NCBI RefSeq assembly: GCF_041381155.1
Contig: NC_091137.1
Coordinates: 14,503,765 to 14,567,764, forward strand
From: Argopecten irradians
Taxonomy: Eukaryota > Mollusca > Bivalvia > Pectinida > Pectinidae
Direction of reading: 5' to 3'
DNA: 64,000 nucleotides
Position numbers and translations under genes: made by a program. Of the stretch, positions 6,880 to 42,864 are shown in pieces. The notes under the pieces are model-generated. The model ran no database searches, was not told the DNA's origin, and saw only the letters and a program-made list of their open reading frames with translations. The stretch's first letter is position 1. Each line of letters starts with the position of its first letter.

Positions 6880-9812
6880 TGACAAATTTCTAGAAAAAGC
6901 TGGGGAGTGCATACCAACTAAAACCATTACTATTCGGCCTAATGACAAGCCGTGGTTAGACGAGATTTAAGAAAACGAGACAAACTTTTAAAGATTTTGA
7001 AACGACATCGAACAACATTAACTCTTGCTAACTTTCGGAAACAACGTAATCATGTAAACAATTATAAAAAGCAGATCAAAGAAAATTTTTATTCGGATAT
7101 TAATGGCATTTTTGATCGTCACTCGGATTCGAACCCTAGAAACTACTGGAAAATTATTCGGAGACTATTAAAAACCTCGGACTCTACCAACTCTATTCCT
7201 CCTCTATTAAACGATGCAGGGCAACCTGATATGACGGATGTAGGTAAAGCCAATTTATTAAATGATTACTTTGTTTCCATATCAACTATTGACGATTCAC
7301 AAATTGACGTTCCAGAGGTAGAGATTAGGACTGACGCTAATATAACTGACATACAATTTCAACCCACCGACGTTATAGACATTCTTAAATCCTTACCTAT
7401 CAATAAAGTAGTAGGACACGACGGAATCAGCCATAATATGCTAAAACACACAGCATCTTCTATTGCATTACCCTTATTTCTAATATTCAGACCTTCCTTG
7501 GATATTAGTATCTTCCCAAAACAGTGGAAATCAGCTTTAGTCATGCCATCCTTTAAAAAAGGAGATAAGCATAATTCTACTAACTATAGACCTACATCTC
7601 TCTGAAGTACAATAGGAAAAGTTTTTGAAAGATTGGTAGTCAAATATCTAAACAACTACTTACTTGATAATTCGCTCATATATAAATGATAGTCAGGTTT
7701 TCAACTAGGACATTCTTCATCTCACCAATTTATTGAAATCTACCATTCCTTATGTGAAAATATTGAAAAAAAATGCACTCAACATGCTTAGTTTTCTGTG
7801 ATATTTCGAAAGCATTCGATCGTGTGTGGCACAAGGGACTGAATGCTAAACTAGCAAATTATGGTATAGGCGGAAAATTGCTAAATTGTTTAAAAATTAC
7901 ATCAGTAATCGGAAACAGCAAGTTTTTGTAGGAAATACTAAATCTCCCGTCAAATCTACAAATTCTGGAGTCCTCCAAGGCTCAGTATTAGGTCCGTTCC
8001 TTTTTATATTGTATATTAACGATATTTCTGACAACCTCGAAAGTCTGTCTAAATTATTTGCTGATGATACTTCTTTGCTATGCTCTGAGCCATCAATTTT
8101 AGAAATAGAAACTAACATTAGCGAAGACCTTATGAAAATTCAAAATTGGGCAAATAAATAGTTAGTAACTTTTAACCCCCAAAAGACGAAGCTTTACTTA
8201 TTTCTAATACGGAACATGATCACCTAATCGATATCAAATTCAATAATGTAAGTGTAGATTTTGTAGATAACCATAAGCACTTAGGAGTAACTTTGGAAGC
8301 TAATTGTAAATGGAATATCCACATTGATAATATATGTAAACAGGTATCAAAACAGGTAAGTGTTCTTCGAAAACTTAAATAACCTCTTAATAAACAGACT
8401 TTAATAAAAAAAAATAATATAAAAAGTCACATATTCGCCACTGTTTGAATACTGTTGTGAGGTTTGGGTGGCGAGTGCTCTATAGTGAACGCAAAAAATT
8501 AGAAAAAAAGTCACTTTATAAAAAATAATATAGTCACATATTCGGCCACTGTTTGAATACTGTTGTGAGGTTTGGGATGGGACAGGTGTTCTCTTAGTGA
8601 CGCAGAAAAATTAGAAAAACTTCAGCTTGAATCTTCTAGAATAATTACTGGTCTACCGTCTTATGCTAGCACAAATTCACTGTATTTGGAAAGCGGTCTA
8701 GAACCACTTACTTCCCGTCGTTCCCGTAGAAAACTACAACTATTTCACAAAATAAATAACAAAATTACACCCAACTACCTCTATACATTATTACCCCCAT
8801 TAGTCTAAGAAAATTCTTCCTATAATCTTCGAAATGCTAACAACTTTAATTTACCTTATTTCCGTCTCCGGCTTTCAAACGTATCGTATTTTCCATCCAC
8901 TATCCGACTTTGGAACCAGCTAGATATAAATATTAGAAATAGTGTTTCATATAGCATTTTAAAAAAGTCTCCAAATAATCTTACGAAAGTACCTATTTAT
9001 TATTCTATTGGAAATAGAACCGCAAATATATTGCATGCCAGATTAAGAAATAGATGCAGTACCCTAAAAATGATTTATTCCGCTCTAATTTAATAGATTA
9101 CCAGCAATGCCAATGTGGGCTTCCCATTGAAGATGCCCATCACTTCTTCTGTAATAATTACGCTGACCAGAGAATTCAATTATTGCGAACATTAAACAAC
9201 TTCATTCCTTGCGAGACCAACTGTGGTGTATTATCAGTACTGTGAAAGATATAGATTTTGTTTTTTATCTCAATTCAATGTCAAAATATCATCTACTGCA
9301 TGTTCTTCTTGGTGGACTATTTAACTACCATTTATCTCAAAATGAACTGGAAGACTTTAGACTAAATTCAATTATTATTGTTAACAAAATGTTCGTACAA
9401 AGTGGTATTCATAACTGACCTTTTTTCTTTTCTTTTTTTAGGCAAATATTTGATTGTATTAACTTCAACTGAAGTTATATGTATGCTAAATCTTGTGAAC
9501 TCCAGAGTATTTGTATTATGTATGTTTTTGTGCTAGCCTTATATATAGACTCTTGATACGTATATATCTGTTATTACAAACAGTATGTATCATTTGTGAT
9601 GTCTCGTCTACATATGTTTGTAGCTAATTATTATAAGCATTCTCCGCTATTAGATAATGGCAAATGTAGTCGAATATCTAATAGTATTTTCTTGTATTGA
9701 TAGATATGTATATATGTGTGTAACGTGTGTATGTTAGAATGTTTCTTTCTTTATTTATGTATTGTTTTCTGTAAACTCTTCAATATTGGAGGAAATAAAG
9801 GAAATAATAATA
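6880..9812 (+). mobile_element. Non-LTR retrotransposon (LINE), 5'-truncated and decayed
   Basis: Translation shows the second half of a LINE ORF2. A linker (KPWLDE near 6950) leads into a reverse transcriptase with NKVVGHDGISHNMLK, FKKGDKHN..NYRP, the LLS-like continuation STIGKVFERLV, GSVLGPFLFILYIND, and the catalytic FADD (LFADDTSLLC, about 8057). A C-terminal C-x-C-G...EDAHHFF...C segment at about 9110 is typical of several LINE clades. The frame is broken: TGA at 7603-7605, adjacent stops near 7687-7692, a shift at the A-run near 7770, a stop at 8159-8161, and others later. The apurinic endonuclease is missing, so it is 5' truncated. The 3' end is probably the AAT-rich tail near 9790-9812. 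Clade assignment (Jockey/CR1-like) is uncertain. It is not active. Confidence 0.85.
8411..8620 (+). repeat. 107-bp tandem duplication inside the LINE
   Basis: A segment beginning near GTCACATATTCG at 8426 recurs at 8533, with the same following text through the W/D-containing coding stretch. The two copies differ by several small indels and substitutions. It disrupts the LINE coding region and postdates or accompanies its decay. Confidence 0.8.
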
Positions 9813-11792: not shown

Positions 11793-14700
11793 ATGACAAT
11801 TGTAAAATGTCTTGCTCGTTTTGTGTTTCTCCTCCTTCTTCATCCGTATGTCTGTTCGTCCGTGGTGTTAACATCAGAGAATGGACTCATATCGATTACG
11901 TCAGCTGATGTTTTGGCGGCGGCAGACGAGTCCACAGTGTTGACGTCGCCGGGCGACTCTACATCATTAACGTCGGAGGAACATACCTTATTAGACGGTA
12001 AGACTCAGTTGAGAATTAGTTGTCTATAGCAATTCTGTTAAATACGTATTAGCATTTATTCAATTTTCAATAAGAGTGTGTAAAACATGTCCTTCATTAT
12101 TTAATTAGTCAATAAGAGAGGTCTAAAATTTATCTACATTTTTAATATTTTATTTTATAATTTATGTACCGAATCAGTGTCTGTTCCAGATACCTTTCCT
12201 CGCAAATCAAATGAGATGGGCAGGACGTTTCAAAAGCCTTCTTACTCTGAAGACGAGGACAGAAAGAGAAACAACATTGACGACATCGTCGCTGGAGTCA
12301 TTAAAGAAGCAGAACTGGTGAGACTTCAATACACAATTATACAGTTTTTACTATGTGATGGCAGTGTGAAAGCTTTGGTAAGGCCTAGTGGTGGGGGTTA
12401 TATTTTAAACATCTTGAAATATTTTTTTTATGATTTGTATGTAAAGCAGAAAAAACAACAGGTTAGACTAGTTTTGATGACAGGCGATAGTAATTCCCAA
12501 TTCTTTTTCGACGAAAACCCTTAGAGATTTTTCAAATTAAGATACCGTACTAAAGCAAGACTCGGATATCAGGTAATGCTACTTATGTATCTAGACGGTT
12601 CAGCATTGTCCCTTACCACCAAGTACTACCATTACATTGTCTAATAGCCACTTTCACTTGTTCTAATGATATTGACGATTTTTCTCTTTTCACCAAGTAC
12701 TTCAAGAGTGTTCATTGTCCCTTTTCACTTTCACATGTAAAAAATATACAAACGAATTTTCACTTCAGTTTACTTTTTTATTGGTTGACATTTCCATTCT
12801 TTCTATCCCACACAGAACAACCCAGTGGTATTAAGGTCATGGCGAGTCAATCCTCCACCGACTGACCGACGGACAGTGTCCGTGGACAGCACAGTGGTCA
12901 CTTTGTTGGTGGAGGTTCACAGTAAAGGGGTCAGCCCTCGATTCCAGGTTCACGACCCTACAGGTAGGTAAGAGGTCACATAAAAACAGCCCTTCAGAAG
13001 TTAGACCTCCATTCAAGGTTTGGCAGTTTACGCTTCCTTGAATTATTGACCTTTTAAGTTTAGAGTGAAGTTCGTTCCAGAATCATAGTGTTATCATACT
13101 GAATCAGAGATCCCCCCAGTAAAACTTAGATGTTTGGACTGTATTTATGTTGGTTGCAGGTGCTGTTGTAAACCCTACGGACGATAGAAACGTGACGATG
13201 GAAGTGGACAGTAACCGTCTGAAGATAATGAAGATTAAACACCCAATGCAAGGTATTACAACACTTACCTGTATATACTACCGATCAGAAACACTATGAA
13301 ATGTGGTCTCTACTAACAACTAGTAAACAGACATCAATCTTCATTTCATTATCTGAAATATATTTTTACAAGGTTCGCCATTATTTCCATGAAATATTCC
13401 CACAGTTTCGAGAACCATTACAACATAACTCAATTTAAAGCGTCATCATAAACACATATCCTAAGTTTCGATGTTATGGTTCTATTGAAGGAGAATGGGT
13501 GATACTGTTTCTATCGAAACAACACGAATACAACGTCACCATCAGAGGTAGTTCAATGATCCAGTTTAAATATAGGTTTATGGATGGATGGGGGATTCCT
13601 CTGTCCGGCCGACCAGTTGTCGGTAAGTTTTCTTACTTATGTTCATACTTAACAATTTTCTTCTCAAAAATATGCCGAATTACTCTACGGAGTGCTGCAA
13701 CTAAGACGATAGCGCCCCTGTTTCAACAAATATAGATGTCCTCAATCGAGCTTTGGAATCTGGCGATGGCCCATTAGTATTTGCTTTTGCTTTTGGTTCA
13801 AAAACATTTTGTCTGCAATTCCGACAGTCATCTAACAAAGAAAGTGATGTTGAACCATGACTTATCTACCTTTATACGGCTTACGTCTAGGTTCTAACGT
13901 CACTCTCCGGATACAACTACTAGGAGAAAAGGATGTACAGACCTTAACGGAAGTGTCGTTGATGACGGTGGCGGGAACGACCATTTTGTCGAGACAACTT
14001 GGGGAGGCCAAGGGTCGTCGTCACATGACATACATTGCCCATAATATAAGGATTCCAGGGGAGGTAATATGGAAAAAATATGTATTCAATAACATTTTGA
14101 AACAATGCCAGATTTTCGTCGTGAACACTTACCTAATACAAAATTATATTTTATTCCATTGCTTACAGGTCTAATATGTATCCTCTTTTACTTTTCATAG
14201 GACTTTCGAGTCGGTATCCGTGGAGTTGATATGCGGTCCAACGTCATCGAACGGACACTAATTAACCCTATTTTGCCAGACGGCATCAAGTTATCACTGA
14301 AGTCTCTAACGCCAGGTAGGGTTTGTTTTACTAAACACCATATTACTGAAGGCTCTAGCGCCAGGTAGGGTTTGTTTTACTACTCACCATATCACTGAAG
14401 GCTCTAACGCCAGGTAGGGTTTGTTTTACTACACACCATATCACTGAAGTCTCTAACGCCAGGTAGGGTTTGTTTTACTACACACCATATCACTGAAGTC
14501 TCTAACGCCAGGTAGGGTTTGTTTTACTACACACCATATCACTGAAGTCTCTAACGCCAGGTAGGGTTTGTTTTACTACACACCATATCACTGAAGGCTC
14601 TAACGCCAGGTAGGGTTTGTTTTACTACTCACCATATTACTGAAGGCTCTAACGCCAGGTAGGGTTTGTTTTACTAAACACCATATCACTGAAGACTCTA

Positions 14701-17700
14701 ACGCCAGGTAGGGTTTGTTTAACTACACACCATATCACTGAAGGCTCTAACGCCAGGTAGGGTTTGTTTTACAACACACCATATCACTGAAGGCTCTAAC
14801 GCCAGGTAGGGTTTGTTTTACTACACACCATATCACTGAAGTCTCTAACGCCAGGTAGGGTTTGTTTTACTAAACACCATATCACTGAAGACTCTAACGC
14901 CAGGTAGGGTTTGTTTTTACTAACACACCATATCACTGAAGGCTCTAACGCCAGGTAGGGTTTGTTTTACTACACACCATATCACTGAAGGCTCTAACGC
15001 CAGGTAGGGTTTGTTTTACTACACACCATATCACTGAAGGCTCTAACGCCAGGTAGGGTTTGTTTTACTAAACACCATATCACTGAAGTCTCTAACGCCA
15101 GGTAGGGTTTGTTTTTACTACACACCATATCACTGAAGTCTCTAACGCCAGGTAGGGTTTGTTTTACTACACACCATATCACTGAAGGCTCTAACGCCAG
15201 GTAGGGTTTGTTTTACTAAACACCATATCACTGAAGTCTCTAACGCCAGGTAGGGTTTGTTTTACTACACACCATATCACTGAAAGCTCTAACGCCAGGT
15301 AGGGTTTGTTTTACTACACACCATATCACTGAAGGCTCTAACGCCAGGTAGGGTTTGTTTTACAACACACCATATCACTGAAGTCTCTAACGCCAGGTAG
15401 GGGTTGTTTTACTACACACCATATCACTGAAGTCTCTAACGCCAGGTAGGGTTTGTTTTACTACACACCATATCACTGAAGTCTCTAACGCCAGGTAGGG
15501 TTTGTTTTACTAAACACCATATCACTGAAGGCTCTAACGCCAGGTAGGGTTTGTTTTACAACACACCATATCACTGAAGGCTCTAACGCCAAGTAGGGTT
15601 TGTTTTACTACACACCATATCACTGAAGGCTCTAACGCCAAGTAGGGTTTGGTTTACTACACACCATATCACTGAAGGCTCTAACGCCAGGTAGGGTTTA
15701 TTTTACTACACACCATATCACTGAAGGCTCTAACGCCAGGTAGGGTTTGTTTTACTACACACCATATCACTGAAGGCTCTAACGCCAGGTAGGGTTTGTT
15801 TTACTACACACCATATCACTGAAGGCTCTAACGCCAGGTAGGGTTTGTTTTACTAAACACCATATCACTGAAGTCTCTAACGCCAGGTAGGGTTTGTTTT
15901 ACTACTCACCATATCACTGAAGGCTCTAACGCCAGGTAGGGTTTGTTTTACTACACACCATATCACTGAAGTCTCTAACACCAGGTAGGTTTTTTTTTTT
16001 ACTACACACCATATCACTGAAGGCTCTAACGCCAAGTAAGGTTTGTTTTACTACTCACCATATCACTGAAGGCTCTAACACCAGGTAGGGTTTGTTTTAC
16101 TACACACCATATCACTGAAGGCTCTAACGCCAGGTAGGGTTTGTTTTACTACTCACCATATCACTGAAGTCTCTAACACCAGGTAGGGTTTGTTTTACTA
16201 CACACCATATTACTGAAGTCTCTAACGCCAGGTAGGGTTTGTTTTACTACACACCATATCACTGAAGGCTCTAACACCAGGTAGGGTTTGTTTTACTACA
16301 CACCATATCACTGAAGGCTCTAACGCCAGGTAGGATTTGTTTTACTACACACCATATCACTGAAGTCTCTAACACCAGGTAGGGTTTGTTTTACTACACA
16401 CCATATCACTGAAGGCTCTAACGCCAGGTAGGGTTTCTTTTACTACACACCATATCACTGAAGGCTCTAACGCCAGGTAGGGGTTTGTTTTACTACACAC
16501 CATATCACTGAAGGCTCTAACGCCAGGTAGGGTTTGTTTTACTACTCCCCATATCACTGAAGTCTCTAACACCAGGTAGGGTTTATTTTACTACACACCA
16601 TATCACTGAAGTCTCTAACACCAGGTAGGGTTTGTTTTACTACACACCATATCACTGAAGGCTCTAACGCCAGGTAGTGTTTGTTTTACTTAACACCATA
16701 TCACTGAAGGCTCTAACGCCAGGTAGGGTTTGTTTTACTTAACACCATATCACTGAAGTCTCTAACGCCAGGTAGGGTTTGTTTTACTACTCACCATATC
16801 ACTGAAGGCTCTAACGCCAGGTAGGGTTTGTTTTACTACTCACCATATCACTGAAGTCTCTAACACCAGGTAGGGTTTATTTTACTACACACCATATCAC
16901 TGAAGTCTCTAACGCCAGGTAGGGTTTGTTTTACTACACACCATATCACTGAAGGCTCTAACGCCAGGTAGGGTTTGTTTTACTACACACCATATCACTG
17001 AAGGCTCTAACGCCAGGTAGGGTTTGTTTTACTACTCACCATATCACTGAAGTCTCTAACACCAGGTAGGGTTTATTTTACTACACACCATATCACTGAA
17101 GTCTCTAACACCAGGTAGGGTTTGTTTTACTACACACCATATCACTGAAGGCTCTAACGCCAGGTAGGGTTTGTTTTACTACACACCATATCACTGAAGG
17201 CTCTAACGCCAGGTAGGGTTTGTTTTACTTAACACCATATCACTGAAGTCTCTAACGCCAGGTAGGGTTTGTTTTACTACTCACCATATCACTGAAGGCT
17301 CTAACGCCAGGTAGGGTTTGTTTTACTACTCACCATATCACTGAAGTCTCTAACACCAGGTAGGGTTTATCTTACTACACACCATATCACTGAAGACTCT
17401 AACGCCAGGTAGGGTTTGTTTTACTACTCACCATATTACTGAAGGCTCTAACGCCAGGTAGGGTTTGTTTTACTAAACACCATATCACTGAAGACTCTAA
17501 CGCCAGGTAGGGTTTGTTTAACTACACACCATATCACTGAAAGCTCTAACGCCAGGTAGGGTTTGTTTTACTACACACCATATCACTGAAGGCTCTAACG
17601 CCAGGTAGGGTTTGTTTTACAACACACCATATCACTGAAGGCTCTAACGCCAGGTAGGGGTTGTTTTACTACACACCATATCACTGAAGTCTCTAACGCC

Positions 17701-20700
17701 AGGTAGGGTTTGTTTTACTAAACACCATATCACTGAAGACTCTAACGCCAGGTAGGGGTTGTTTTACTACACACCATATCACTGAAGGCTCTAACGCCAG
17801 GTAGGGTTTGTTTTACTTAACACCATATCACTGAAGTCTCTAACGCCAAGTAGGGTTTGTTTTACTACACACCATATCACTGAAGGCTCTAACGCCAAGT
17901 AGGGTTTGTTTTACTACACACCATATCACTGAAGTCTCTAACGCCAGGTAGGGTTTGTTTTACTACACACCATATCACTGAAGTCTCTAACGCCAGGTAG
18001 GGTTTGTTTTACTACTCACCATATCACTGAAGGCTCTAACGCCAGGTAGGGTTTGTTTTACTACTCACCATATCACTGAAGTCTCTAACACCAGGTAGGG
18101 TTTATTTTACTACACACCATATCACTGAAGGCTCTAACGCCAGGTAGGGTTTGTTTTACTACACACCATATCACTGAAGGCTCTAACGCCAGGTAGGGTT
18201 TGTTTTACTACACACCATATCACTGAAGGCTCTAACGCCAGGTAGGGTTTGTTTTACTACTCACCATATCACTGAAGTCTCTAACACCAGGTAGGGTTTA
18301 TTTTACTACACACCATATCACTGAAGTCTCTAACACCAGGTAGGGTTTGTTTTACTACACACCATATCACTGAAGGCTCTAACGCCAGGTAGGGTTTGTT
18401 TTACTACACACCATATCACTGAAGGCTCTAACGCCAGGTAGGGTTTGTTTTACTTAACACCATATCACTAAAGTCTCTAACGCCAGGTAGGGTTTGTTTT
18501 ACTACTCACCATATCACTGAAGGCTCTAACGCCAGGTAGGGTTTGTTTTACTACTCACCATATCACTGAAGTCTCTAACACCAGGTAGGGTTTGTTTTAC
18601 TAAACACCATATCACTGAAGACTCTAACGCCAGGTAGGGTTTGTTTTACTAAACACCATATCACTGAAGGCTCTAACGCCAGGTAGGGTTTGTTTTACAA
18701 CACACCATATCACTGAAGGCTCTAACGCCAAGTAGGGTTTGTTTTACTACACACCATATCACTGAAGGCTCTAACGCCAGGTAGGGTTTGTTTTACTTAA
18801 CACCATATCACTAAAGTCTCTAACGCCAGGTAGGGTTTGTTTTAATACTCACCATATCACTGAAGGCTCTAACGCCAGGTAGGGTTTGTTTTACTACTCA
18901 CCATATCACTGAAGTCTCTAACACCAGGTAGGGTTTATCTTACTACACACCATATCACTGAAGGCTCTAACGCCAGGTAGGGTTTGTTTTACTACTCACC
19001 ATATTACTGAAGGCTCTAACGCCAGGTAGGGTTTGTTTTACTAAACACCATATCACTGAAGACTCTAACGCCAGGTAGGGTTTGTTTAACTACACACCAT
19101 ATCACTGAAAGCTCTAACGCCAGGTAGGGTTTGTTTTACTACACACCATATCACTGAAGGCTCTAACGCCAGGTAGGGTTTGTTTTACAACACACCATAT
19201 CACTGAAGGCTCTAACGCCAGGTAGGGGTTGTTTTACTACACACCATATCACTGAAGTCTCTAACGCCAGGTAGGGTTTGTTTTACTAAACACCATATCA
19301 CTGAAGACTCTAACGCCAGGTAGGGTTTGTTTTACTAAACACCATATCACTGAAGGCTCTAACGCCAGGTAGGGTTTGTTTTACAACACACCATATCACT
19401 GAAGGCTCTAACGCCAAGTAGGGTTTGTTTTACTACACACCATATCACTGAAGGCTCTAACGCCAAGTAGGGTTTGGTTTACTACACACCATATCACTGA
19501 AGTCTCTAACGCCAGGTAGGGTTTGTTTTACTACACACCATATCACTGAAGGCTCTAACGCCAGGTAGGGTTTGTTTTACTACACACCATATCACTGAAG
19601 GCTCTAACGCCAGGTAGTGTTTGTTTTACTTAACACCATATCACTGAAGTCTCTAACGCCAGGTAGGGTTTGTTTTACTACACACCATATCACTGAAGGC
19701 TCTAACGCCAGGTAGGGTTTGTTTTACTACTCACCATATCACTGAAGTCTCTAACACCAGGTAGGGTTTATTTTACTACTCACCATATTACTGAAGGCTC
19801 TAACGCCAGGTAGGGTTTGTTTTACTAAACACCATATCACTGAAGACTCTAACGCCAGGTAGGGTTTGTTTAACTACACACCATATCACTGAAAGCTCTA
19901 ACGCCAGGTAGGGTTTGTTTTACTACACACCATATCACTGAAGGCTCTAACGCCAGGTAGGGTTTGTTTTACAACACACCATATCACTGAAGTCTCTAAC
20001 GCCAGGTAGGGGTTGTTTTACTACACACCATATCACTGAAGTCTCTAACGCCAGGTAGGGTTTGTTTTACTACTCACCATATCACTGAAGGCTCTAACGC
20101 CAGGTAGGGTTTGTTTTACTACTCACCATATCACTGAAGTCTCTAACACCAGGTAGGGTTTATCTTACTACACACCATATCACTGAAGGCTCTAACGCCA
20201 GGTAGGGTTTGTTTTACTACTCACCATATTACTGAAGGCTCTAACGCCAGGTAGGGTTTGTTTTACTAAACACCATATCACTGAAGACTCTAACGCCAGG
20301 TAGGGTTTGTTTAACTACACACCATATCACTGAAAGCTCTAACGCCAGGTAGGGTTTGTTTTACTACACACCATATCACTGAAGGCTCTAACGCCAGGTA
20401 GGGTTTGTTTTACAACACACCATATCACTGAAGGCTCTAACGCCAGGTAGGGGTTGTTTTACTACACACCATATCACTGAAGTCTCTAACGCCAGGTAGG
20501 GTTTGTTTTACTAAACACCATATCACTGAAGACTCTAACGCCAGGTAGGGTTTGTTTTACTAAACACCATATCACTGAAGGCTCTAACGCCAGGTAGGGT
20601 TTGTTTTACAACACACCATATCACTGAAGGCTCTAACGCCAAGTAGGGTTTGTTTTACTACACACCATATCACCGAAGGCTCTAACGCCAAGTAGGGTTT

Positions 20701-23700
20701 GGTTTACTACACACCATATCACTGAAGTCTCTAACGCCAGGTAGGGTTTGTTTTACTACACACCATATCACTGAAGGCTCTAACGCCAGGTAGGGTTTGT
20801 TTTACTACACACCATATCACTGAAGGCTCTAACGCCAGGTAGTGTTTGTTTTACTTAACACCATATCACTGAAGTCTCTAACGCCAGGTAGGGTTTGTTT
20901 TACTACTCACCATATCACTGAAGGCTCTAACGCCAGGTAGGGTTTGTTTTACTACTCACCATATCACTGAAGTCTCTAACACCAGGTAGGGTTTATTTTA
21001 CTACTCACCATATTACTGAAGGCTCTAACGCCAGGTAGGGTTTGTTTTACTAAAACACCATATCACTGAAGACTCTAACGCCAGGTAGGGTTTGTTTAAC
21101 TACACACCATATCACTGAAAGCTCTAACGCCAGGTAGGGTTTGTTTTACTACACACCATATCACTGAAGGCTCTAACGCCAGGTAGGGTTTGTTTTACAA
21201 CACACCATATCACTGAAGTCTCTAACGCCAGGTAGGGGTTGTTTTACTACACACCATATCACTGAAGTCTCTAACGCCAGGTAGGGTTTGTTTTACTAAA
21301 CACCATATCACTGAAGGCTCTAACGCCAGGTAGGGTTTGTTTTACAACACACCATATCACTGAAGGCTCTAACGCCAAGTAGGGTTTGTTTTACTACACA
21401 CCATATCACTGAAGGCTCTAACGCCAAGTAGGGTTTGGTTTACTACACACCATATCACTGAAGGCTCTAACGCCAGGTAGGGTTTATTTTACTAAACACC
21501 ATATCACTGAAGTCTCTAACGCCAGGTAGGGTTTGTTTTACTACACACCATATCACTGAAGGCTCTAACGCCAGGTAGGGTTTGTTTTACTAAACACCAT
21601 ATCACTGAAGTCTCTAACGCCAGGTAGGGTTTGTTTTACTACTCACCATATCACTGAAGGCTCTAACGCCAGGTAGGGTTTGTTTTACTACACACCATAT
21701 CACTGAAGGCTCTAACGCCAGGTAGGGTTTGTTTTACTATACACCATATCACTGAAAGCTCTAAAGCCAGGTAGGTTTTTTTTTACTACACACCATATCA
21801 CTGAAGGCTCTAACGCCAAGTAAGGTTTGTTTTACTACTCACCATATCACTGAAGTCTCTAACGCCAGGTAGGGTTTATTTTACTAAACACCATATCACT
21901 GAAGTCTCTAACGCCAGGTAGGGTTTGTTTTACTACACACCATATCACTGAAGGCTCTAACGCCAGGTAGGGGTTGTTTTACTACACACCATATCACTGA
22001 AGTCTCTAACACCAGGTAGGGTTTGTTTTACTACACACCATATCACTGAAGTCTCTAACGCCAGGTAGGGTTTGTTTTACTACACACCATATCACTGAAA
22101 GCTCTAATGCCAGGTAGGGTTTGTTTTACTACACACCATATCACTGAAGGCTCTAACGCCAGGTAGGGTTTGTTTTACAACACACCATATCACTGAAGTC
22201 TCTAACGCCAGGTAGGGGTTGTTTTACTACACACCATATCACTGAAGTCTCTAACGCCAGGTAGGGTTTGTTTTACTAAACACCATATCACTGAAGGCTC
22301 TAACGCCAGGTAGGGTTTGTTTTACAACACACCATATCACTGAAGGCTCTAACGCCAGTAGGGTTTGTTTTACTACACACCATATCACTGAAGGCTCTAA
22401 CGCCAAGTAGGGTTTGGTTTACTACACACCATATCACTGAAGGCTCTAACGCCAGGTAGGGTTTTTTTACTAAACACCATATCACTGAAGTCTCTAACGC
22501 CAGGTAGGGTTTGTTTTACTACACACCATATCACTGAAGGCTCTAACGCCAGGTAGGGTTTGTTTTACTAAACACCATATCACTGAAGTCTCTAACGCCA
22601 GGTAGGGTTTGTTTTACTACTCACCATATCACTGAAGGCTCTAACGCCAGGTAGGGTTTGTTTTACTACACACCATATCACTGAAGGCTCTAACGCCAGG
22701 TAGGGTTTGTTTTACTATACACCATATCACTGAAAGCTCTAAAGCCAGGTAGGTTTTTTTTTACTACACACCATATCACTGAAGGCTCTAACGCCAAGTA
22801 AGGTTTGTTTTACTACTCACCATATCACTGAAGTCTCTAACGCCAGGTAGGGTTTATTTTACTAAACACCATATCACTGAAGTCTCTAACGCCAGGTAGG
22901 GTTTGTTTTACTACACACCATATCACTGAAGGCTCTAACGCCAGGTAGGGGTTGTTTTACTACACACCATATCACTGAAGTCTCTAACACCAGGTAGGGT
23001 TTGTTTTACTACACACCATATCACTGAAGTCTCTAACGCCAGGTAGGGTTTGTTTTACTACACACCATATCACTGAAGGCTCTAATGCCAGGTAGGGTTT
23101 GTTTTACTACACACCATATCACGGTTTTACTACACACCATATCACTGTTTTACTACACACCATATCACTGTTTTACTACACACCATATCACTGTTTTACT
23201 ACACACCATATCACTGTTTTACTACACACCATATCAACCTCTGCTGTCATTATAGGATGGGCTAGATATGGGAGATGAACCTGTTATTTTGTTGTATGTA
23301 TTTCAAGTGAAGCTACATTATTACATTTGTATTTTTGTTATTCCCATTGCAACAACATGTCACCATTAGAAACCTTATAATGCAATCTCACTGAAACATC
23401 TCGCTCCACCAAAGGTAAAGCACGCGTTATGCTCTACAAAAGATAATCATGGTATGACTTTTTGATATTTCTGTATTCCTATGACTAACATCATTCGTTT
23501 CAAATGAATTTGGTGCGAAGCAGATTAGATCATACAACATCCGTCTTCTATAGATGATCCAGGTTGTTGAAGTCGATAAAATAATATTCACTCTTTCTCA
23601 TTACTATTTTATTTTCTTTGTCGATAATGAATTAAGTCCACTTTTTATTACTGTAAATATCACCATACGCCAAATGAAGCCACTGGACTCATAAGAAACT

Positions 23701-26700
23701 GATGGGAAACTGTGTTGCAGTTCGAGTCCTTGACATTCGTGTATAAATATGCTAGTTTGGTCTTTTGACGTACATCACCTGAACGACATGGCAGCCATTG
23801 GTGTAATTCGCTTGTGTCCATTGTTTACATTTGTTGTCTCCAAACCAAACACCAATATTAACTAGATTTGATCGCGATCAAAACACGGGATTTCCACCTA
23901 TGTAATGATATAAGTAATGTTAGCGAACAGACGATTGCTTGAACGAACGAACGATCTCACTCAATATTAATCAGAAAGCGTTTCTTACGAAAGTAGTCTG
24001 GTCCAACCGAAAAACAGATTTAGGGGAATCCCCTTTTGGACACTAGAGTCATAGAGAGGTGAATATATCGGAACCTGCTGATTGGATATATTCAGGGTAC
24101 ATCATTGTAAAGAATTTTGATGTGAATTTGTTTGGTTCTGTGGTTTCAAAACTCCCGGGTATTTTCCCCAACATAGCACCGGTTTTGCTTAAACATTCGG
24201 TGTCACAGGTGACAGCTCTGCCACAAACATAAAAGGTTTTGAACCTGTCAGTTATTGGGTTTGTGCATTACCTTTCTTTGATTAAATGTACGTCCTATCA
24301 ATAGCTAGGTTCACGTAAGGACGGTTTCCCATACATGAGGTGTAGCTACGCATGTAATTTTACGTGTATTAACGCAAACATGGCGATTGTGTACATTGTT
24401 CATGTAGAACTTAAAACATCTCGAAATTAAAGTATTCAAGTTGGGTATAGGTAACAACCAGCCAAATGAAAAACAAAAGACCTTCGAAACGGCCCGTGTG
24501 TAACGAAGGTTGAGCCCAGGACAGAATTTTAACCCGGCCGCTGATTGGCTGGCTAATCTTGAATTTCAAAAGTAAAAATGTTTTCTGACAGGTAATTATT
24601 CCTTGATAACCATATGAATTTGGAAATTCAGATTGAGATTTAGGTTCAAAATATCAATTTTGTTAATGAATAGGTGAAAACATTAGAATTTCAGGTTTTT
24701 TAAAAGTGCAAAAATTCTCCTTTTCTTATGAAGATCTTGGACCAATGCGGAATAACACGTACGATTAGAGTTTTAGTATTAGATATGGATTATCTCCCTT
24801 TGGCCACATGCCACATCATGTAATCACAACTCAAAATCGCTGAAAGTTCTATACCTCCGCCATTTTGAATCATATGACATTGAAATTGGTCATTTTATGT
24901 GTCTGAAAGCATGATCTTTCACATCCAATTCAAAACATTTCACCTTTGAATTTTCATGAATTACGCTAAAATTTACGTTAAAAAATGAACGAAACGCCAT
25001 ATTCGGAGGGGTGTATTTCCACCATTTTCAAATTCCTGATTTTGAAATTATAACTCTGTACAGACAATATATCAATGTCTACATTTACATAAAATCAACA
25101 CCCTAAATTAAATCATAAAGGCCCTACGAGCTCACAAATTACGGAAAAAAAAAGAAAACATACAGGTTTAGAGGCGCTGAAACGCGCAAGGACAAATATA
25201 AACTAAAATTTCGATTTTCGATGTCCTATATCTCCGCCATTTTGAATCTTATGACCTTGAAGCATGATCTTTCACATCCAATTCAAAACATTTCACCTTT
25301 GAATTTTCATGAATTACGCTAAAATTTACGTTAAAAAATGAACGAAACGCCATATTCGGAGGTCTATATTTCCGCCATTTTCAAATTCATGTCTTTGAAA
25401 TTAAAAACCAGAACAGACAATAGGCTAAAGCTTACAATTACAAAAATTCAACACTCTACATGAGATGATAAAGGCCCTACGTAACGGAAAAAAAATAAGA
25501 AAATAAAACAAACAGCCATATTTGGAGAGCTATATTTCCGCCATTTTTCTATATAACCCCTTAAAAATAAATAAATTTTGAAGACAAAAGTTCATACAAC
25601 ACAGGTATGAAAAATCAACACTGTACATACAGGTTTAAAGGCGCTGAAACGTCTCGTGCAAGGACAAATATAAACTAAAATTTCGATTTTTGATGTCCTA
25701 TATCTCCGCCATTTTGAATCTTATGACCTTGAACTTGGTCATTTTATGTGTCTGAAAGCATGATCTTTCACATCCAATTCAAAACATTTCACCTTTGAAT
25801 TTTCATGAATTACGCTAAAATCTACGTTAAAAATGAACGAAACGCCATATTCGGAGGTCTATATTTCCGCCATTTTCAAATTCATGTCTTTGAAATTAAA
25901 AACCTGTACAGACAATAGGCTAAAGCTTACAATTACAAAAATTCAACACTCTACATGAGATGATAAAGGCCCTACGTAACGGAAAAAAATAAGAAAATAA
26001 AACAAACAGCCATATTTGGAGAGCTATATTTCCGCCATTTTTCTATATAACCCCTTAAAAATAAATAACTTTTGAAGACAAAAGTTCATACAACACAGGT
26101 ATGAAAAATCAACACTGTACATACAGGTTTAAAGGCGCTGAAACGTCTCGTGCAAGGACAAATATAAACTAAAATTTCGATTTTTGATGTCCTATATCTC
26201 CGCCATTTTGAATCTTATGACCTTGAACTTGGTCATTTTATGTGTCTGAAAGCATGATCTTTCACATCCAATTCAAAACATTTCACCTTTGAATTTTCAT
26301 GAATTACACTAAAATCTACGTTAAAAATGAACGAAACGCCATATTCAGAGGTCTATATTTCCGCCATTTTCAAATTCATGTCTTTGAAATTAAAAACCAG
26401 TACAGACAATAGGCTAAAGCTAACATTTACAAAAATTCAACACTCTACATGAGATGATAAAGGCCCTACGAGCTCACAAATAACGGAAAAAAAAAATAAG
26501 AAAATGAAACAAATTGCCATATTTGGAGAGCTATGTTTCCGCCATTTTTTCTATATAACCCCTTAAAAAATAAATAACTTTTGAAGACAAAAGTTCATAC
26601 AACACAGGTATGAAAAATCAACACTGTACATACAGGTTTAAAGGCGCTGAAACGTCTCGTGCAAGGACAAATATAAACTAAAATTTCGATTTTTGATGTC

Positions 26701-29700
26701 CTATATCTCCGCCATTTTGAATCTTATGACCTTGAACTTGGTCATTTTATGTGTCTGAAAGCATGATCTTTCACATCCAATTCAAAACATTTCACCTTTG
26801 AATTTTCATGAATTACGCTAAAATCTACGTTAAAAATGAACGAAACGCCATATTCGGAGGTCTATATTTCCGCCATTTTCAAATTCATGTCTTTGAAATT
26901 AAAAACCAGTACAGACAATAGGCTAAAGCTAACATTTACAAAAATTCAACACTCTACATGAGATGATAAAGGCCCTACGAGCTCACAAATAACGGAAAAA
27001 AAATAAGAAAAATGAAACAAATTGCCATATTTGGAGAGCTATATTTCCGCCATTTTTCTATATAACCCCTTAAAAATAAATAACTTTTGAAGACAAAAGT
27101 TCATACAACATAGGTATGAAAAATCAACACTGTACAACAGGTTTAAAGGCGCTGAAACGTCTCGGGCAAGGACAAATATAAACTAAAAATTTGATTTTTG
27201 ATGTCCTATATCTCCGCCATTTTTTGATCATATGACCTTGAAATTAGTCATTTTATGTACCTGAGAACATGCTCTTTCATATGCGCACTTCGAAACATTT
27301 CTATGGTAAAGTTCATTTTTGACCTTTGTTTGGACCTCATTTGACCCCCTAGTGAACTCGTGACCTTGACATAATTTCTGATAACAAGTAATGAGAAAAA
27401 AAACGTGAATTATCGTGATCTACATGGAGAATGAAACGCACATGTTGTGTAGCGTACGGTTATGAAATTATGAGCGTTTAAAGTTCGTTCGAAAAAAGCA
27501 GTTTTTTTACGTCTGTGACCTTGACCTTGAACGTTATCCTCCAAAGTCGAGCGCACATTTCAAGCACTCATGTACGTACATAACGTGTCCAAATTTCAGC
27601 GCTCTACACCTTTTATTTATAAAGAAGAAGTCGTTTAAAGATTTAAAGCTTTTTGAATCCTGTGACCTTGAATGAATGTCAAGGTCAATAAAAGGAATAA
27701 GTTCTGTAGACATTCGTCCATGCTATATCTATACAAAAATTCAAGCATGTATGTTAAGTATTAAAGGCGCTGAAACCTTTAAAATTTTTGGCGGGAAAAC
27801 GCCAAAATAGCCGTTTTTTTCAAAGGCCTATATCTCCGCCATTTTGGATCTCATGACCTTAAAACTTGTCATTATATATAATCTGAGGGCATGACCTTTC
27901 ATATTCAACTTTCAAAATTTTTCTGTGGTAAATTTCGTTTTTGACCTTTGTTTGACCCCGTAGCGAACTCTTGACCTTGACATAATCTCTGATAACATGC
28001 ATGGGAAAAGCACGCGCAATGTCACGATCTGTCTGAATAACAAAACGTGAACGATGTACAGCGTACAGTAATGAAGTTATGAGCGTTTAAACTTCGTTCC
28101 AAAAAATTGTTTTTTACGTCTGTGACCTTGACCTTGAACATTTTTGTAAAAAAATCGAACGTACATTTCCAGATCTTATGTACATTCATAACATGTCCAA
28201 AGTTTGAGCGTCGTACCTTATTCCGTCCTGAGATATCCTGCTAACAAGATTTGTGGAAATAAGAAAAAAAAAGAAAAATAAGAATAAGAAGAAACTAGAT
28301 TTGATCGCGATCAAAACACGGGATTTCCACCTATGTAATGATATAAGTAATGTTAGCGAACAGACGATTGCTTGAACGAACGGGCGATCTCACTCAATAT
28401 TAATCAGAAAGCGTTTCTTACGAAAGTAGTCTGGTTCAACCGAAAAAAAACAGATTTAGGGGGAATCCCCCTTTGGGCACAAGATTTCATAGAGAGGTGA
28501 ATATATAGGAGCCTGCTGATTGGATATATTCAGGGTACACCAGTTAATGGTTTATGTGTGGGTCGGACAAATACATGTAGATGTAAAATTTATAAAGAAT
28601 TTTGATAACTTCATTTAACCTGAATAGTAGCAAACGTTAACACTGGTCCTCTATAGGTTCTGTGATCTCAAAACGGCCGGGTAGTTTCTCAAATTGAACC
28701 GGTTGTGTTATTTGAACATCCGGTGTCACAGGTGACAGCTCTGCCACACACATAAAAGGTTTTTTAAACCTGTCAGTTATTGGGTTTGTGCCATTACTTT
28801 TGTTGTTTGTTTGTTCAAATGTACGTCCTATTAACAGCTAGGGTCCACGTAAGGACGGCCTCCCATGGTATGCGGTGTAGCTACACATGTACGTGTTATT
28901 TTACGCAAACATGTGTACATTGTTCATATATACGTGTACAATGTAGAACTTAAAACATCTCGAAAAGTATTCAAAACTAAATGAAGAAAGACCTTCGAAA
29001 CGGCCCGTGTGTATGAGCCCAGGACAGAATTTTAACCCGGCCGCTGATTGGCTGGCTTACTATGAATTTCAAAATTAAAAATGTTTTCTGACAGGTAATT
29101 ATTCCTTGATAACCGTGATATAAATTTGGAAATTCAGATTGAGATTTAGGTTCAAAATATCAATTTTGATAATGAATAGGTAAACACATTAGAATTTGAG
29201 GTTTTTTAAAAGTGCAAAAATTCTCCTTTTCTGATGAAGATCTTGGACCAATGCGCAATAAACACGTACGATTAGAGTTTTAGTATTAGATACCGATTAT
29301 CTCCCTTTGGCCACATCATCATGTAATCACAACTCAAAATCGCTGAAAGTTCTATACCTCCGCCATTTTGAATCATATGACATTGAAATTGGTCATTTTA
29401 AGTGTCTGAAAGCATGATCTTTCACATCCAATTCAAAACATTTCACCTTTGAATTTTCATGAATTACCCTAAAATTTACGTTAAAAAATGAACGAAACGC
29501 CATGATTCGGAGGTCTATATTTCCGCCATTTTCAAATTCATGTCTTTGAAATTAAAAACCTGTACAGACAATAGGCTAAAGCTTTACATTTACAAAAATT
29601 CAACACTCAACATGAGATGATAAAGGCCCTACGAGCTCACAAATAACGAAAAAATAAGAAAATTTGAAACAAATGTGCCATATTTGGAGAGCTATATTTC

Positions 29701-32700
29701 CGCCATTTTTTTCTATATAACCCCTTAAAAATAAATAACTTTTGAAGACAAAAGTTCATACAACACAGGTATGAAAAATCAACACTGTACATACAGGTTT
29801 AAAGGCGCTGAAACGTCTCGTGCAAGGACAAATAAAAACTAAAATTTCGATTTTCGATGTCCTATATCTCCGCCATTTTGAATCTTATGACCTTTGAACT
29901 TGGTCATTTTATGTGTCTGAAAGCATGATCTTTCACATCCAATTCAAAACATTTCACCTTTGAATTTTCATGAATTACCCTAAAATTTACGTTAAAAAAT
30001 GAACGAAACGCCATATTCGGAGGTCTGTATTTTCCGCCATTTTCAAATTCATGTCTTTGAAATTAAAAACCTGTACAGACAATAGGCTAAAGCTAACATT
30101 TACAAAAAATCAACACCCTATATGAGACGATAAAGGCCCTACGAGCTCACAAATAACGGACAAAATAAGAAAATGAAACAAATTGCCATATTTGGAGAGC
30201 TATATATTCGCCATTTTTCTATATAACCCCTTAAAAATAAATAACTTTTGAAGACAAAAGTTCATACAACACAGGTATGAAAAATCAACACTGTACATAC
30301 AGGTTTAAAGGCGCTGAAACGTCTCGTGCAAGGACAAATAAAAACTAAAAATTCGATTTTCGATGTCCTATATCTCCGCCAATTTGAATCTTATGACCTT
30401 GAACTTGGTCATTTTATGTGTCTGAAAGCATGATCTTTCACATCCGATTCAAAAACATTTCACCTTTGAATTTTCATGAATTACCCTAAAATTTACGTTA
30501 AAAAATGAACGAAACGCCATATTCGGAGGTCTATATTTTCCGCCATTTTCAAATTCACATGTCTTTGAAATTAAAAACCTGTACAGACAATAGGCTAAAG
30601 CTTACATTTACAAAAAATCAACACTCTAAATGAGATGATAAAGGGCCCTACGAGCTCACTTTATCTCCAAACCAAACACCAATATTAATAAAAAAAAAAA
30701 AAAAAAGGAAGGGAAAACCATAACAATAAAAGAAAAATCAATCGAATATATTTCCAAAGATGATTGATACTCTTAGTTATTGGCCTTTTGTATGCGTGTC
30801 TTTGATTCGCTCGGTGTCGGTGCGAAACACCTCAGCGCAGTAATAGTGTGGATTTTATATCCGTATCTGGATGCAGACAAATACCAATGCTAATGCTGCC
30901 CTCGAATGATAACATATATAGCTGTAATTGACTTATTCTAGAGGTACAGGTATAGAGAGCGACAGGGAACTTAACGAACAGGACTGGCCACCGGTCTATA
31001 GAATATTGAAAAGATAATTAATATTTGGTTTGATTATTTTTGTCTCTACTATTTGTCTAATTCTAGAAAGTTTCAAACTAGGGGGGGATCTAGTGAAGAA
31101 CTGAGGATATCTGATCAACAACTTAGGATCTGTTGGTCAGTCTAGACAACGACGGATATCACCACAAACCTGTACAGATAAATTCCAACCCTCTGTGGGA
31201 CAACACTCCGAAACAAATGAATGTAGTGCTTCTTCTTTCTGTTGCACAATACCCTCTCATGGTGTAGGCGATCACCTGGAGTTATTCAGCGAGTAGACAA
31301 AACGTTTCCCTTTTGCTTACTTTAGCAATTATATATAACGTTATAAATATTGTTTAATGCGACTTTGTTCCTGCTATAAGGTTCGGTTATCGCCTCCGAA
31401 TATGCTAATTTGACATAGTTGTTTGACAGTACTTTACCTAAATTTGTGTGGCTGGTGTCGTCAACGAAGTAGATGATTACACTCCCGGAACATATGGTTC
31501 TTTCCTCATTATACACATGCAAGATATTCTATAAAAATCGACGCGTATGTCTGCCTGTTCGATCTACATTGTAGTTTATATATCAAAGTCGCGACTGTAT
31601 CTTTGTTCGACCACTGTTTTCTATATATACCACAGGTACCGTGCAGACGGGCGGGTGGTATCTCCTCCAGTACAGAATTACTAACGATGGCACAGGAGGA
31701 GGTAACTTCACAGTAACAGCAGTCTCCGACACACCCGTAAGAACTTCAAACAATATTAATAATTTCAATTATTTACTAGTGTTGTTATTTTAGTGTGAAA
31801 GCATCTGCTGTTGTTCAGATGAAAAGTTTCGCCTCATAGTATTGTTAACCGCTGGGATATTTCTCCGCTAACTTATCTATTGTAGATGTTATAACGTATT
31901 TGCTCTGCGTCCTTCATCTTTATTCAGTTGGTCGTTTTATACATTGCAGAAATATATCCCGTGTTCATAATCGGTTCAATTAATGGCACAAGAATATAAC
32001 TTACAACAAAATATTTGAACTTCAAATGATAAAGGTTAGAATCTATGAACTTTTCAAAGGCCAAGTTAGTAACTAGTAACTGGTTGAAGTTGAAATTTGT
32101 AATACAGAAATTCACTTTAAAATTATTTATATTTAAAACTGGACTTTTATTTGACGATGTTCAATTCCTTTCAGTACCTTACGTTTACCGTCATACCAGA
32201 TTGTGTATACGTCAGAGCTGGACAACACACATATGGTAACGTCACTGTTGACGTCTCAGAATACGCTGTTCCTGGTACAAAAAGGTAAAACTATACTCAA
32301 TGTATATGTATAATCAATGAACCTTAAACTAGATCTAAGATAACCGACTAAACAATAGCAGTAGATGAAATAGTCTTATCGATAAACCAGATATTCAAAT
32401 ACAAATAAAACACTTCAATCCATATCAAATATCTGAATAAAAATATATTTTCATATTGATCAATTTTAAAGATGCTCCACCGCTGACAAATGGTAATCTT
32501 TCACTATCAAAAACAGGAGCAGACGATTTAGTATTTTTCTACAGTTACAAAAGTTACTTACTTTACACAATTACCACCATTGAAAAGTTTGAGCTTCTAA
32601 TTTTACTTCAAGTTAAAAATATGAAAAAGAATTAATTGCATCCCGAAAAAAATCAGTGGTACTATATCTTATATGGAATGAAGTGATTATTGCGCATGCA

Positions 32701-35700
32701 CCAAAGGCTAAATAAATTATTTAATGTTATTTTTTGTGTTAATTAGGCATATATATACACGATTAAACACCAATTATTGTTCAAATGATGAATATCATAT
32801 ATGCTCTGTCGGCGGTGGAGCATCTTTAGGAATATTTTAACTTTTTTTTGCAATGAATTCTAACACTCACTTAAACCTAGTGTTTTCATGACCTCTTGAA
32901 CTCTGATTATGGTATTATTACGCCAGAGCCTAACTGAAAATGTTTATATTGGAAAATAACACACATTGGGCCTAGTAGCAACATATGGATACTGTGCAGT
33001 GGCAATGTAAATATTCATAAATAGCATTTGCATTTTACTGTTGTCCTCACTATATATAAAACGGATGCACTGTGTCGACATGATGACTATGATGCTATTC
33101 AAAATGTTCATTATACATATTATTTGTTAACAGTGATGTCATCGTTCGAGCAACAAATACATCCGGGGACTTCCAGTTCTCCAGCCGAGAACTCTCTATT
33201 GTTGAACCTCCTACTGGTGCCGATACGCATGCGCCTGATTTTTCCACTACAAATATTATTGATAACTGCGACTCCGCTCAGGTATTTAGAAATATTGGAG
33301 TACACTATGAAATACGAAAATTCCCCTTTCAAAATAAAAATAATTTATTTTGGAATTTATTTTAAATTCGTTTCATTTCCATATACATAAGGATGGATAT
33401 TCTTATTTCTACCCTACCGCACAGAGATACCTGCACTTCCGGATAAGATTTCTGTGTCTTAATTAACCAAGGCTAGACAGCCTGCACACGTAGAACATAT
33501 TCGCGTGATAAACAGGAAGTTGTAAAACGTCATATGCAAATAAACATTAATTTGTGCAGTCCAATTGGACAATTCATATCACCTTTGACCCCAAGCTCGT
33601 GCTTTGCGCACCGTGCTGAACTTTGATCTAATGATCATCACAATCGGAAGTCCGTTTGCCTTCACATATTTCGTTGATGTTTACGCGGTGATATAAAATA
33701 AATATATATGTTTATAATTCTTTGACTTTGAATAATTCAACGTGGTATATATTCTTGTATGTTACAATGCAACGAGTTTGACAAAGTTTGTGCCAAAGTA
33801 AAATAATAGAATTAGTAAATAAATACTGTGTTCGCTTTTTGAAATTAAGTAGACTATTACTAGTTTTAAACATTTTCCCTTTGGAAATTATAAGGGCAGA
33901 ATAAGGCTCATTCCCTACCTAGAGAGAAAGACAGGGAAACCATTGGATGAGATTCACGACAGTTTAACCCTAGGCAAACCTCGAGTTGGACAGTCATGGA
34001 TCTCCTACTCGGGTTGAAATTTATCTGTCCTACCCTCAAGGTAGGGAACGATCATATTAACCTTGACAATTCAAATGAAATGAAAATGATGCCAAGGGAC
34101 ATGTTTAAGTTGATCGTAATAACAGGTGATCTGGTGCATGTGTTTTCTTACACTGAACTTTTACAGTCCAGTACTTGGGAGGTGATATTTCAAGTCCAGG
34201 ATGACGAATCCGGTATCCGCAAGGTTGATGTTGATGACCACACAGTTTCCACCATCACCATGGAAACGTTTGATGATGGCCAAGCCAACAAGCCAGTCAA
34301 CGGACACTTAAGGTATAGATTTTAAGAAATTTCCTAACAAATAGATTAACATCATATCATTTTAAAAATAGAAATAGCCTGATGTTCTGCTTTGAACATT
34401 GATGACATCCACAAAACAACGCTAGGTCACCATACGAGGATTGGATAGTTACAACAGAATCTCTTAACAACAAGAATAGCTTTAAATATCAGAACAGATC
34501 AACTTCCATCTTTTATATGTCAAAAGTGGTCCAAATATTATAGGAAATAAAAAATGATATCTGTGTACTTTACCCAATCACGCGGATTTCTTGCTTTCAC
34601 TTTAAGATTCGTCATTTAAACAAGAGTAATTTTGATTAATAAATTATTAGTTGGTGTATAACTTGTTCTCCAAAAGCATTTATTTAATGAAACTTTTCTA
34701 TATAATAAAGTGTAAATACCCTGTTTCTGTGTCTCAGTATACAGTGCTCCAGACAGCAGGTGACGGTGATTGTGGATGACGTGGAGGGCAATGAGGGACG
34801 CTATCTAGTCACACACGTCCGTCATCAGGTGATATTTCTACCTTACCTGGTCATTCTTTTATCATATCTTTTTAGAATTTTATTCGGGTAAAGTAATAAC
34901 AAAACTTTGGTAAGGATCAATTAAAAATGTTTGCATCGTCACAAGGATATCACCTCTGATGGATTATTAGCCTATCTATCCTTGGTGTTTATGTCTGTGT
35001 TATTTCCATATCTAATATCACTATATTATAACTTGCATATGTACTTAGAGCTACATTAGAAATGTTAATTTAAATAGATACGAATCTTACGAACCACGTT
35101 CCACCTCATCACAATAACAATGGTTACATAATCACATGATCATATAACTAATCAAAGTACATATACTTGCACAATACCTTTCTCCAAACATTCACTGATT
35201 TGTCACCGGTTTTAGCCGTGGGAGATTTCTCTGTCAACCCCAGGGTATCACAGATTGCGCGCGCTAACCTTTTGAACCTGAAGACAATTATGTGAAGTCA
35301 TGGCTTCATGCGATGTGACCGTGGTGTGCATTGTCGATGACGTCATCAATATTGACTTGCTGACAATGGAACCATGTTCATGTCGCGATGAAAATGCTTC
35401 TTTTTAGTCTATTTTCTATTCTTTTTCTTTTGTAAATGGGAGAAAAAGAATCATTCCCTACCTATGAGAGTGTGACAACAAAATCACAACCCTCTGAGGA
35501 ATTCCTGAATGTCCAATCCTCGGCAAGCATCGGGTTGGACGTTCGTGAATTACCCCTCGGGTTGTGATTTTGTTGTCACACCCTCTAGGTAGGGAAAGAT
35601 TCTATTAGTCTTTCCACCAACCTGCCAAAAATACAACTCGCAATAGTGGCCCCGTCCAAGTATATATTTTCTATTAGTCGTATATTGACGTTATTTACTT

Positions 35701-38048: not shown

Positions 38049-38244
38049 CATTTTAGTATTAACCAAAAAACGGAACTTCCTACTTTGCTTTATTTAGATA
38101 TATGAACATTTGAATCAATGCCAAGAATGGTCTAAAGTTCTACTGTAATTATGATAGTTTTTAACGTGTGTACATGTGTACTCAAAGGTATGCAAATGGT
38201 ATCTTTCGGTCTATAAATTAACAATATATCGTGCAAAAAAGTTA

Positions 38245-40529: not shown

Positions 40530-40946
40530 TATTGATTTCCATTACAAACCGAACCTTGGACTTACAGACTAGGTATTGAAGAAATGCCAGCCTGTTATTA
40601 TTAAGGACGTATGCCCTACATATAACAACCAGGTCATTATGTCAAATGTTTATAAATCTTAAAACAATGACATTGTTTGAAACGGTGCCAAGTTGGCCTA
40701 ATTGTACTTAGTTCTTAAAAGGAACATAAACTGTTCGGACTGTAGCCTTTATGTTATACCAAAGCATATCTTGATAATCGGAGGCTACTGAAGCATCGAG
40801 ATGTTATTATTTATCTACAATGAAAGTACATTTTGATATTAGAAACAAATATGAATGTATAACCAATTGTTTCATGTCTCGTTTTACTTATTTTTACCAA
40901 TACTACATTCCAATATACGAGTAGATTTTAAAATTGATTATTAGTT

Positions 40947-42770: not shown

Positions 42771-42864
42771 AAAATGCGCACGATACGACGCAGAACCAGA
42801 CACTTACATTAAAATGCGCACGATACGACGCAGAACCAAACACTTACATTAAAATGCGCACGAT
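42771..42864. repeat. 40-bp tandem repeat, 2.3 copies
   Basis: AAAATGCGCACGATACGACG starts at 42771 and 42811; a third, partial copy starts at 42851. Confidence 0.95.

Follow-up and report, generated by a model that had tools for sequence, protein, structure and literature searches.

Tandem repeats that supply a gene with splice sites have been described in smaller cases than the one reported here. The human 6-16 gene (IFI6/G1P3) contains a minisatellite, reportedly described by Turri, Cuin and Porter in 1995, with a 12-bp unit that is present in about 26 copies. Introns are also said to have arisen from tandem arrays, to judge by the title of a 2007 report by Zhuo. A passage in PMC4526556 states that two downstream repeat units of IFI6 act as splice donors, giving rise to three mRNA species. 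According to an excerpt of PMC2812944, tandem repeats at exon–intron boundaries of human paralogs can alter splicing by forming novel introns, and intron gain through tandem genomic duplication of AGGT is treated in part of a review (PMC3443670). Here, we describe a 49-bp minisatellite in a predicted gene of the bivalve Argopecten irradians, in which the repeat unit spans an exon–intron junction and carries the splice donor with it. The window analyzed is a stretch of 64,000 nucleotides (assembly GCF_041381155.1, contig NC_091137.1, positions 14,503,765 to 14,567,764 of the forward strand), and all positions below are numbered from its first letter.

Like the IFI6 repeat, the array is a minisatellite that gives one gene several splice donors, and according to the gene model each unit holds a donor of its own. 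Unlike the IFI6 repeat, the unit is 49 bp long, occurs in 180 copies and is half exon and half intron, and all of the alternative donors truncate the predicted protein. The array shares with the human paralogs a tandem repeat at an exon–intron boundary, but differs from the novel introns described in that excerpt (PMC2812944) in that the acceptor lies outside the array, about 8.4 kb past its end. This acceptor, at 31635, is not a repeat copy and is absent from the 179 matches (≤3 mismatches) to an 18-mer of the unit. As in the AGGT duplications of PMC3443670, so far as that part of the review describes them, the duplicated segment carries AG/GT (in 164 of the 180 copies); however, the duplicated piece here includes a donor that is already used in the gene model. 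The kind of arrangement is known from 6-16/IFI6 and from boundary repeats, while its scale and frame geometry appear to be new. An initial annotation of the window, made from the sequence alone, had stated that no described case of such scale was known to it; this holds for size, since no splice-donor array as large was found in searches of open-access literature, but has to be qualified by the smaller cases.

Tandem Repeats Finder placed the array at 14292–23122, with a period of 49, 180.1 copies, 94% matches and 0% indels, and cyclic alignment resolved it into 180 complete copies and a partial copy of 6 bases. The initial annotation had given about 180 copies from 14292, which stands, and an end at 23100, which is moved to 23122. 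Head-to-tail units of 49 bp fall within the range of roughly 10–100 bp of minisatellites, or variable number tandem repeats. The copies are 49 nt long in 173 of 180 cases, with three of 50 nt, two of 51 nt and two of 48 nt; the mean identity is 0.968 to the consensus and 0.947 between pairs, and 46 distinct unit sequences are present when insertions are left uncounted. The 18-mer AACGCCAGGTAGGGTTTG, allowing up to three mismatches, occurs 179 times on the + strand of the array, where 0.01 occurrences would be expected, and nowhere else in the window. There is no doubt that the 49-bp repeat is real. A scan against Rfam at the gathering score found no RNA family.

Copy 1 (14292–14340) consists exactly of the last 24 nt of exon 7 (14292–14315) and the first 25 nt of intron 7, as had first been proposed. 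The exons of the gene were joined by hand from open frames and splice sites, and the result was then verified by script. The resulting sequence-based model comprises 13 exons at 11793–35937 on the + strand, which form a single open frame of 604 residues with GT and AG at the ends of all 12 introns. An alternative in-frame start of exon 2 is possible 12 nt upstream. The model supports a predicted end of exon 7 at 14315, and both this boundary and the acceptor at 31635/31636 agree with the initial annotation. The acceptor tract of exon 7 is 88% pyrimidine. Exon 7 itself is 115 nt long, which is not a multiple of three, so that its skipping would result in a frameshift. All 49 bp of copy 1 recur unchanged in seven other copies scattered through the array (12, 25, 70, 102, 127, 143 and 163), and the 24-nt exon tail is found unchanged in 40 of the 180 copies, copy 1 counted; the coding end of exon 7 is therefore not set apart from the rest of the array. 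The predicted features of the gene and the array are as follows:

11793–11997, + strand: exon 1, with the start codon, a hydrophobic leader taken by eye for a signal peptide, and the donor ACG/GTAAGA.
12190–12317, 12816–12963, 13160–13252, 13491–13622 and 13891–14063, + strand: exons 2 to 6, with introns running from GT to AG and the frame kept.
14201–14315, + strand: exon 7, whose last 24 nt (14292–14315) form the exonic part of array copy 1.
14292–23122, + strand: 49-bp minisatellite, 180 complete copies and 6 bases, with all donors on the sense strand.
14316–31635, + strand: intron 7, 17,320 bp.
14365–14366, + strand: donor of copy 2, giving an exon 7 of 164 nt, frame +1, and a stop after 363 residues in exon 8.
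31636–31736, + strand: exon 8, with the acceptor CCACAG/GTACCG, restoring ...LTP-G-TVQTGG...
32175–32284, 33134–33281, 34167–34312, 34738–34828 and 35713–35937, + strand: exons 9 to 13 of the gene model.

When exon 7 was joined to exon 8 from each array donor, one at a time, and the product translated, donor 1 was the only one of the 180 to yield the full-length protein of 604 residues. With donor 2, the frame ends in exon 8, as listed above, and with donors 3–180 the product stops after 348 residues, within the array. A premature stop thus results from 179 of the 180 donors, with at least five exon junctions downstream, and transcripts from donors 2–180 would presumably be decayed. Alternative ends of exon 7, which the initial annotation had suggested, are possible, but since all except the first bring a premature stop, the isoforms would be nonproductive. 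Exon 7 would lengthen with each donor, from 115 nt at donor 1 and 164 nt at donor 2 to 507 nt at donor 9, so that under exon definition the realistic competitors of donor 1 would be the first few copies.

GT is kept in all 180 copies, AG/GT in 164 and CAGGTAGGG in 157, while 15 copies have CAA/GT and one has lost the G; the earlier description of near-identical CGCCAG/GTAGGG donors applies to most copies, though not to all. We expressed donor strength as the RNA duplex energy with the 5′ end of U1. The donor of copy 1, CAG/GTAGGG (14316–14317, + strand), pairs at −11.2 kcal/mol and is the second best of the 12 donors in the gene, after that of exon 3 at −13.4 kcal/mol. (The exon 3 donor, at 12964, reads CAG/GTAGGTAA and has CAG/GTAGG in common with the array donor.) Within the array, 157 donors have an energy of −11.2 kcal/mol, three of −11.8, one of −10.7, three of −9.4, and 16 of −5.0 or −4.7, so that 161 of 180 reach −10.7 kcal/mol or better. 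Outside the array, only 8 of 3007 GTs on the + strand are as good as the array donor, and none of 393 in the intron from 23240 on. Sites at −11.2 kcal/mol or better occur at 18.1 per kb in the array versus 0.15 per kb outside on the + strand, and not at all on the array's minus strand. Close to copy 1, the next best GT within 14201–14330 has an energy of −5.4 kcal/mol, and within exon 7, upstream of 14316, no GT is better than −4.4 kcal/mol.

There was no sign of selection on the donors. Variable columns make up 4 of 9 in the donor core and 19 of 40 elsewhere in the unit (Fisher p = 1.0), so that the core varies as much as its surroundings; they make up 9 of 24 in the exon-derived part and 14 of 25 in the intron-derived part (p = 0.26). 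Both p-values are rough, as columns were treated as independent. The array copies look like passengers of array growth.

The predicted product matches the Pfam family GBD_Hemicentin at residues 118–213 of the 604-residue model, with 46.9 bits (cut-off 27, E = 2.7e-12). A match to GBD_IRG7_N (22 bits, cut-off 27) overlaps this one and was set aside. With the whole protein, Ig_VWA7 is matched at residues 326–423 with 24.7 bits, under the cut-off of 27, and with a 153-residue fragment from the end of exon 6 to exon 10 the score is 28.1 bits against the same cut-off. In this fragment, residues 46–144 fall on positions 4–102 of the profile with zero net gap across the exon 7/exon 8 join. Deleting or masking the eight residues shared with the array lowered the score to 26.0 or 26.1, respectively, so that the tail is worth about 2 bits. 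We take the predicted gene to be VWA7/hemicentin-like, and exon 13 encodes a hydrophobic stretch that was taken by eye for a transmembrane segment. No N-terminal VWA domain was matched in the 604-residue model at E up to 1, and no search for further exons was made upstream of 11793. Among solved structures, there was no meaningful match to the product (five matches, E of 0.74 or worse).

The internal order of the units bears on how the array has grown. Two 12-unit blocks each occur twice in identical form, whereas shuffling the order of the units (200 trials) never produced an identical stretch of more than 4 units. Such repeated blocks fit multi-unit unequal exchange. These internal 12-unit duplications, seen in one assembly, suggest that the length of the array may vary between individuals. 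At its far end, the array runs into six 23-bp repeats that lack the donor, and TG is found at both edges of the missing 26-nt piece in the 49-mer. The features concerned are:

18855–20667, + strand: first identical block pair, copies 94–105 (18855–19442) and 119–130 (20080–20667), 25 units apart.
21502–23067, + strand: second identical block pair, copies 148–159 (21502–22089) and 168–179 (22480–23067), 20 units apart.
23100–23236, + strand: six 23-bp repeats, each by eye the 49-mer minus a 26-nt donor-bearing piece.
23232–23236, + strand: TATCA, the last bases before the unique intron, matching the TATCA at 14292–14296 that opens the unit.

The two TATCA motifs may have seeded the first duplication by slippage, or the far one may simply be left over from the repeats. 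In viral and prokaryote contigs, which are little suited to finding an animal gene, exact 30-mer searches gave no matches; at the protein level, 52 pattern stretches in viral contigs yielded no confirmed relative.

The best explanation, to which we assign a probability of roughly 0.68, is a duplication spanning the exon–intron boundary that grew by unequal exchange and has been tolerated as exon 7 mostly uses the first donor, with some leakage to nonsense isoforms. A 49-bp segment across the exon 7/intron 7 junction would first have been duplicated in tandem, probably because short direct repeats (TATCA) allowed slippage or end-joining, and multi-unit unequal exchange would then have raised the copy number to 180. 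With the junction inside the unit, a sense-strand donor would have passed to each copy. Exon 7 is presumably defined from its own strong acceptor to whichever donors lie nearest, so that copy 1 would dominate. A certain leakage into the first few copies would yield short-lived nonsense mRNAs, while the remaining copies would be tolerated as passengers, perhaps with local binding of U1.

Several points weigh against this explanation. Both the use of copy 1 and the expression of the gene are presumed from the sequence. Local folding in 140-nt windows, with accessibility taken as the probability of being unpaired, averaged over positions −3 to +6, gave 0.12 for the donor of copy 1, the lowest value among the 180 copies and among the gene's 12 donors. 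The donors of copies 2–6 had values of 0.25–0.27, so that folding, in predictions that ignore proteins and co-transcriptional folding, would favor the next copies over copy 1. Furthermore, SRSF1 can favor the intron-proximal of two donors, which would predict use of the downstream copies, while hnRNP A1 is said to favor the intron-distal of competing donors (both from a passage in PMC5585400). The domain evidence for a native exon tail is also weak: a fragment beginning at exon 8 alone scores 26.5 bits for Ig_VWA7, and the whole-protein score is under the cut-off, as noted above. Across the array, the donors had a mean unpaired probability of 0.27 (range 0.12–0.42), compared to a mean of 0.42 for 300 random GTs outside it. 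The first six copies together fold worse than all of 200 shuffles (z = +2.53); open donors had been deduced from this result, a conclusion that was dropped when the direct calculation showed the opposite for the donors themselves. The accessibility result slightly lowered our confidence in the boundary-spanning duplication with dominant use of copy 1, and in a local role of the array in binding U1, and slightly raised it for a regulatory role of donor choice.

In such a role, which we regard as an unlikely alternative, the balance between productive mRNA and mRNA lost to nonsense-mediated decay would depend on the number and quality of the near donors, making the length of the array a heritable expression dial. 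All 179 alternative donors lead to a premature stop upstream of at least five exon junctions, and their transcripts would be expected to decay; the donors pair well with U1, copy 1 is predicted to be less accessible than the copies that follow it, and the array looks unstable in length, given the repeated 12-unit blocks. IFI6 provides a precedent in its two downstream repeat donors (a passage in PMC4526556). However, the donor core is no more conserved than the remainder of the unit, and exon 7 would already reach 507 nt at donor 9, so few copies would compete if exon definition holds. An extended version, in which a heritable dial acting on splicing through nonsense-mediated decay is combined with a ladder that also loads U1 onto the nascent intron, is doubtful.

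It is unlikely that the array came first, as a satellite already present in intron 7 into which a shifted donor later lengthened exon 7. The exon tail, identical in 40 of 180 copies, is indistinguishable from the array, and the domain test that might separate the two is weak; nevertheless, no GT in exon 7 upstream of 14316 is better than −4.4 kcal/mol, the Ig_VWA7 profile match takes in the tail, and the 18-mer is found nowhere else in the window.

The initial annotation had also suggested that the array could act as a sink for U1. A nucleus contains about 1 million U1 particles, and compared to this figure, about 180 sites on a few nascent RNAs would be negligible; at that abundance, a cell-wide sink is implausible. 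A local effect in cis may occur, but the specific proposal that many U1 particles on the array suppress intronic polyadenylation or keep unspliced RNA on chromatin seems to us quite improbable. The sites are dense, with 161 of 180 at −10.7 kcal/mol or better and, at −11.2 kcal/mol or better, 18.1 per kb versus 0.15 per kb outside on the + strand, and AATAAA and ATTAAA are absent from the array while occurring 15 and 12 times, respectively, in the rest of intron 7. The absence of these signals, however, follows from the sequence of the unit, and the donors are partly hidden in predicted local pairing (0.27 versus 0.42), although six copies fold worse than shuffles.

We consider it very improbable that the copy number is inflated by an assembly artefact or that the gene is not transcribed, since long arrays are indeed hard to assemble but 46 distinct unit sequences are present here in an ordered pattern and the frame is open over 13 exons. 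Least credible is a ladder of recursive splicing, in which each AG/GT would serve as acceptor and donor and the array would be removed stepwise with the donor rebuilt: AG/GT is intact in 164 of 180 copies, and a splice from one such junction to another would lose nothing, but the tracts that precede the array AGs are poor in pyrimidines. Over the 17 nt from −20 to −4, the pyrimidine fraction is 0.41–0.53 in copies 2–180 (179 sites, including a few without AG) versus 0.59–0.88 in the gene's 12 acceptors; a 49-nt intron would also be very short.

It has long been asked by what rule the spliceosome picks one of several equal donors, and this locus would offer a natural ladder of 180 donors, spaced at intervals of about 49 nt and set in almost identical exon and intron surroundings. 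Which copy had been used could be told simply from how long exon 7 is, and every wrong choice would result in nonsense. The array would thereby serve as a natural test of whether donors are chosen on a first-come basis or by proximity to the acceptor. According to the gene model, the minisatellite also takes in the end of a coding exon, which would share its turnover.

Intron 7 contains further repeats downstream of the array. The segment at 23860–24101 matches 28293–28539 at 94.3%, and that at 24134–25158 matches 28656–29662 at 85.5%. A 494-bp tandem repeat at 25260–27301 (4.1 copies) recurs at 29349–30659 with about 94% identity. The region 23860–30660 may represent a duplicated mobile element with an internal array.

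Elsewhere in the window, a second minisatellite at 47097–47708 has a 50-bp unit in 12.2 copies with 97% matches, and a 40-bp unit is repeated 2.4 times at 42769–42864 with 98% matches. A direct repeat of about 275 bp (38343–38613 and 40942–41216) is 90% identical and lies near two minus-strand open frames at 37374–38093 and 40218–40541, which look alike by eye and had no Pfam match at E up to 0.01. The same search found no match for a 531-codon open frame at 51476–53071 on the + strand, which by eye is rich in hydrophobic residues. Several broken frames at 6946–9245 are probably the remains of a reverse-transcriptase element, with RVT_1 matched at 7850–8158; the sole match for the frame at 6946–7602 is a weak one to DUF3627 (21.5 bits, cut-off 20.9). 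On the minus strand, 60059–60550 matches the Ets domain over its second half (68.1 bits, profile positions 36–81 of 81) and probably represents the final coding exon of an ETS transcription factor gene. Finally, a PHD-finger match at 182–346 (31.0 bits, cut-off 24) probably belongs to a gene that enters the window from its left edge.

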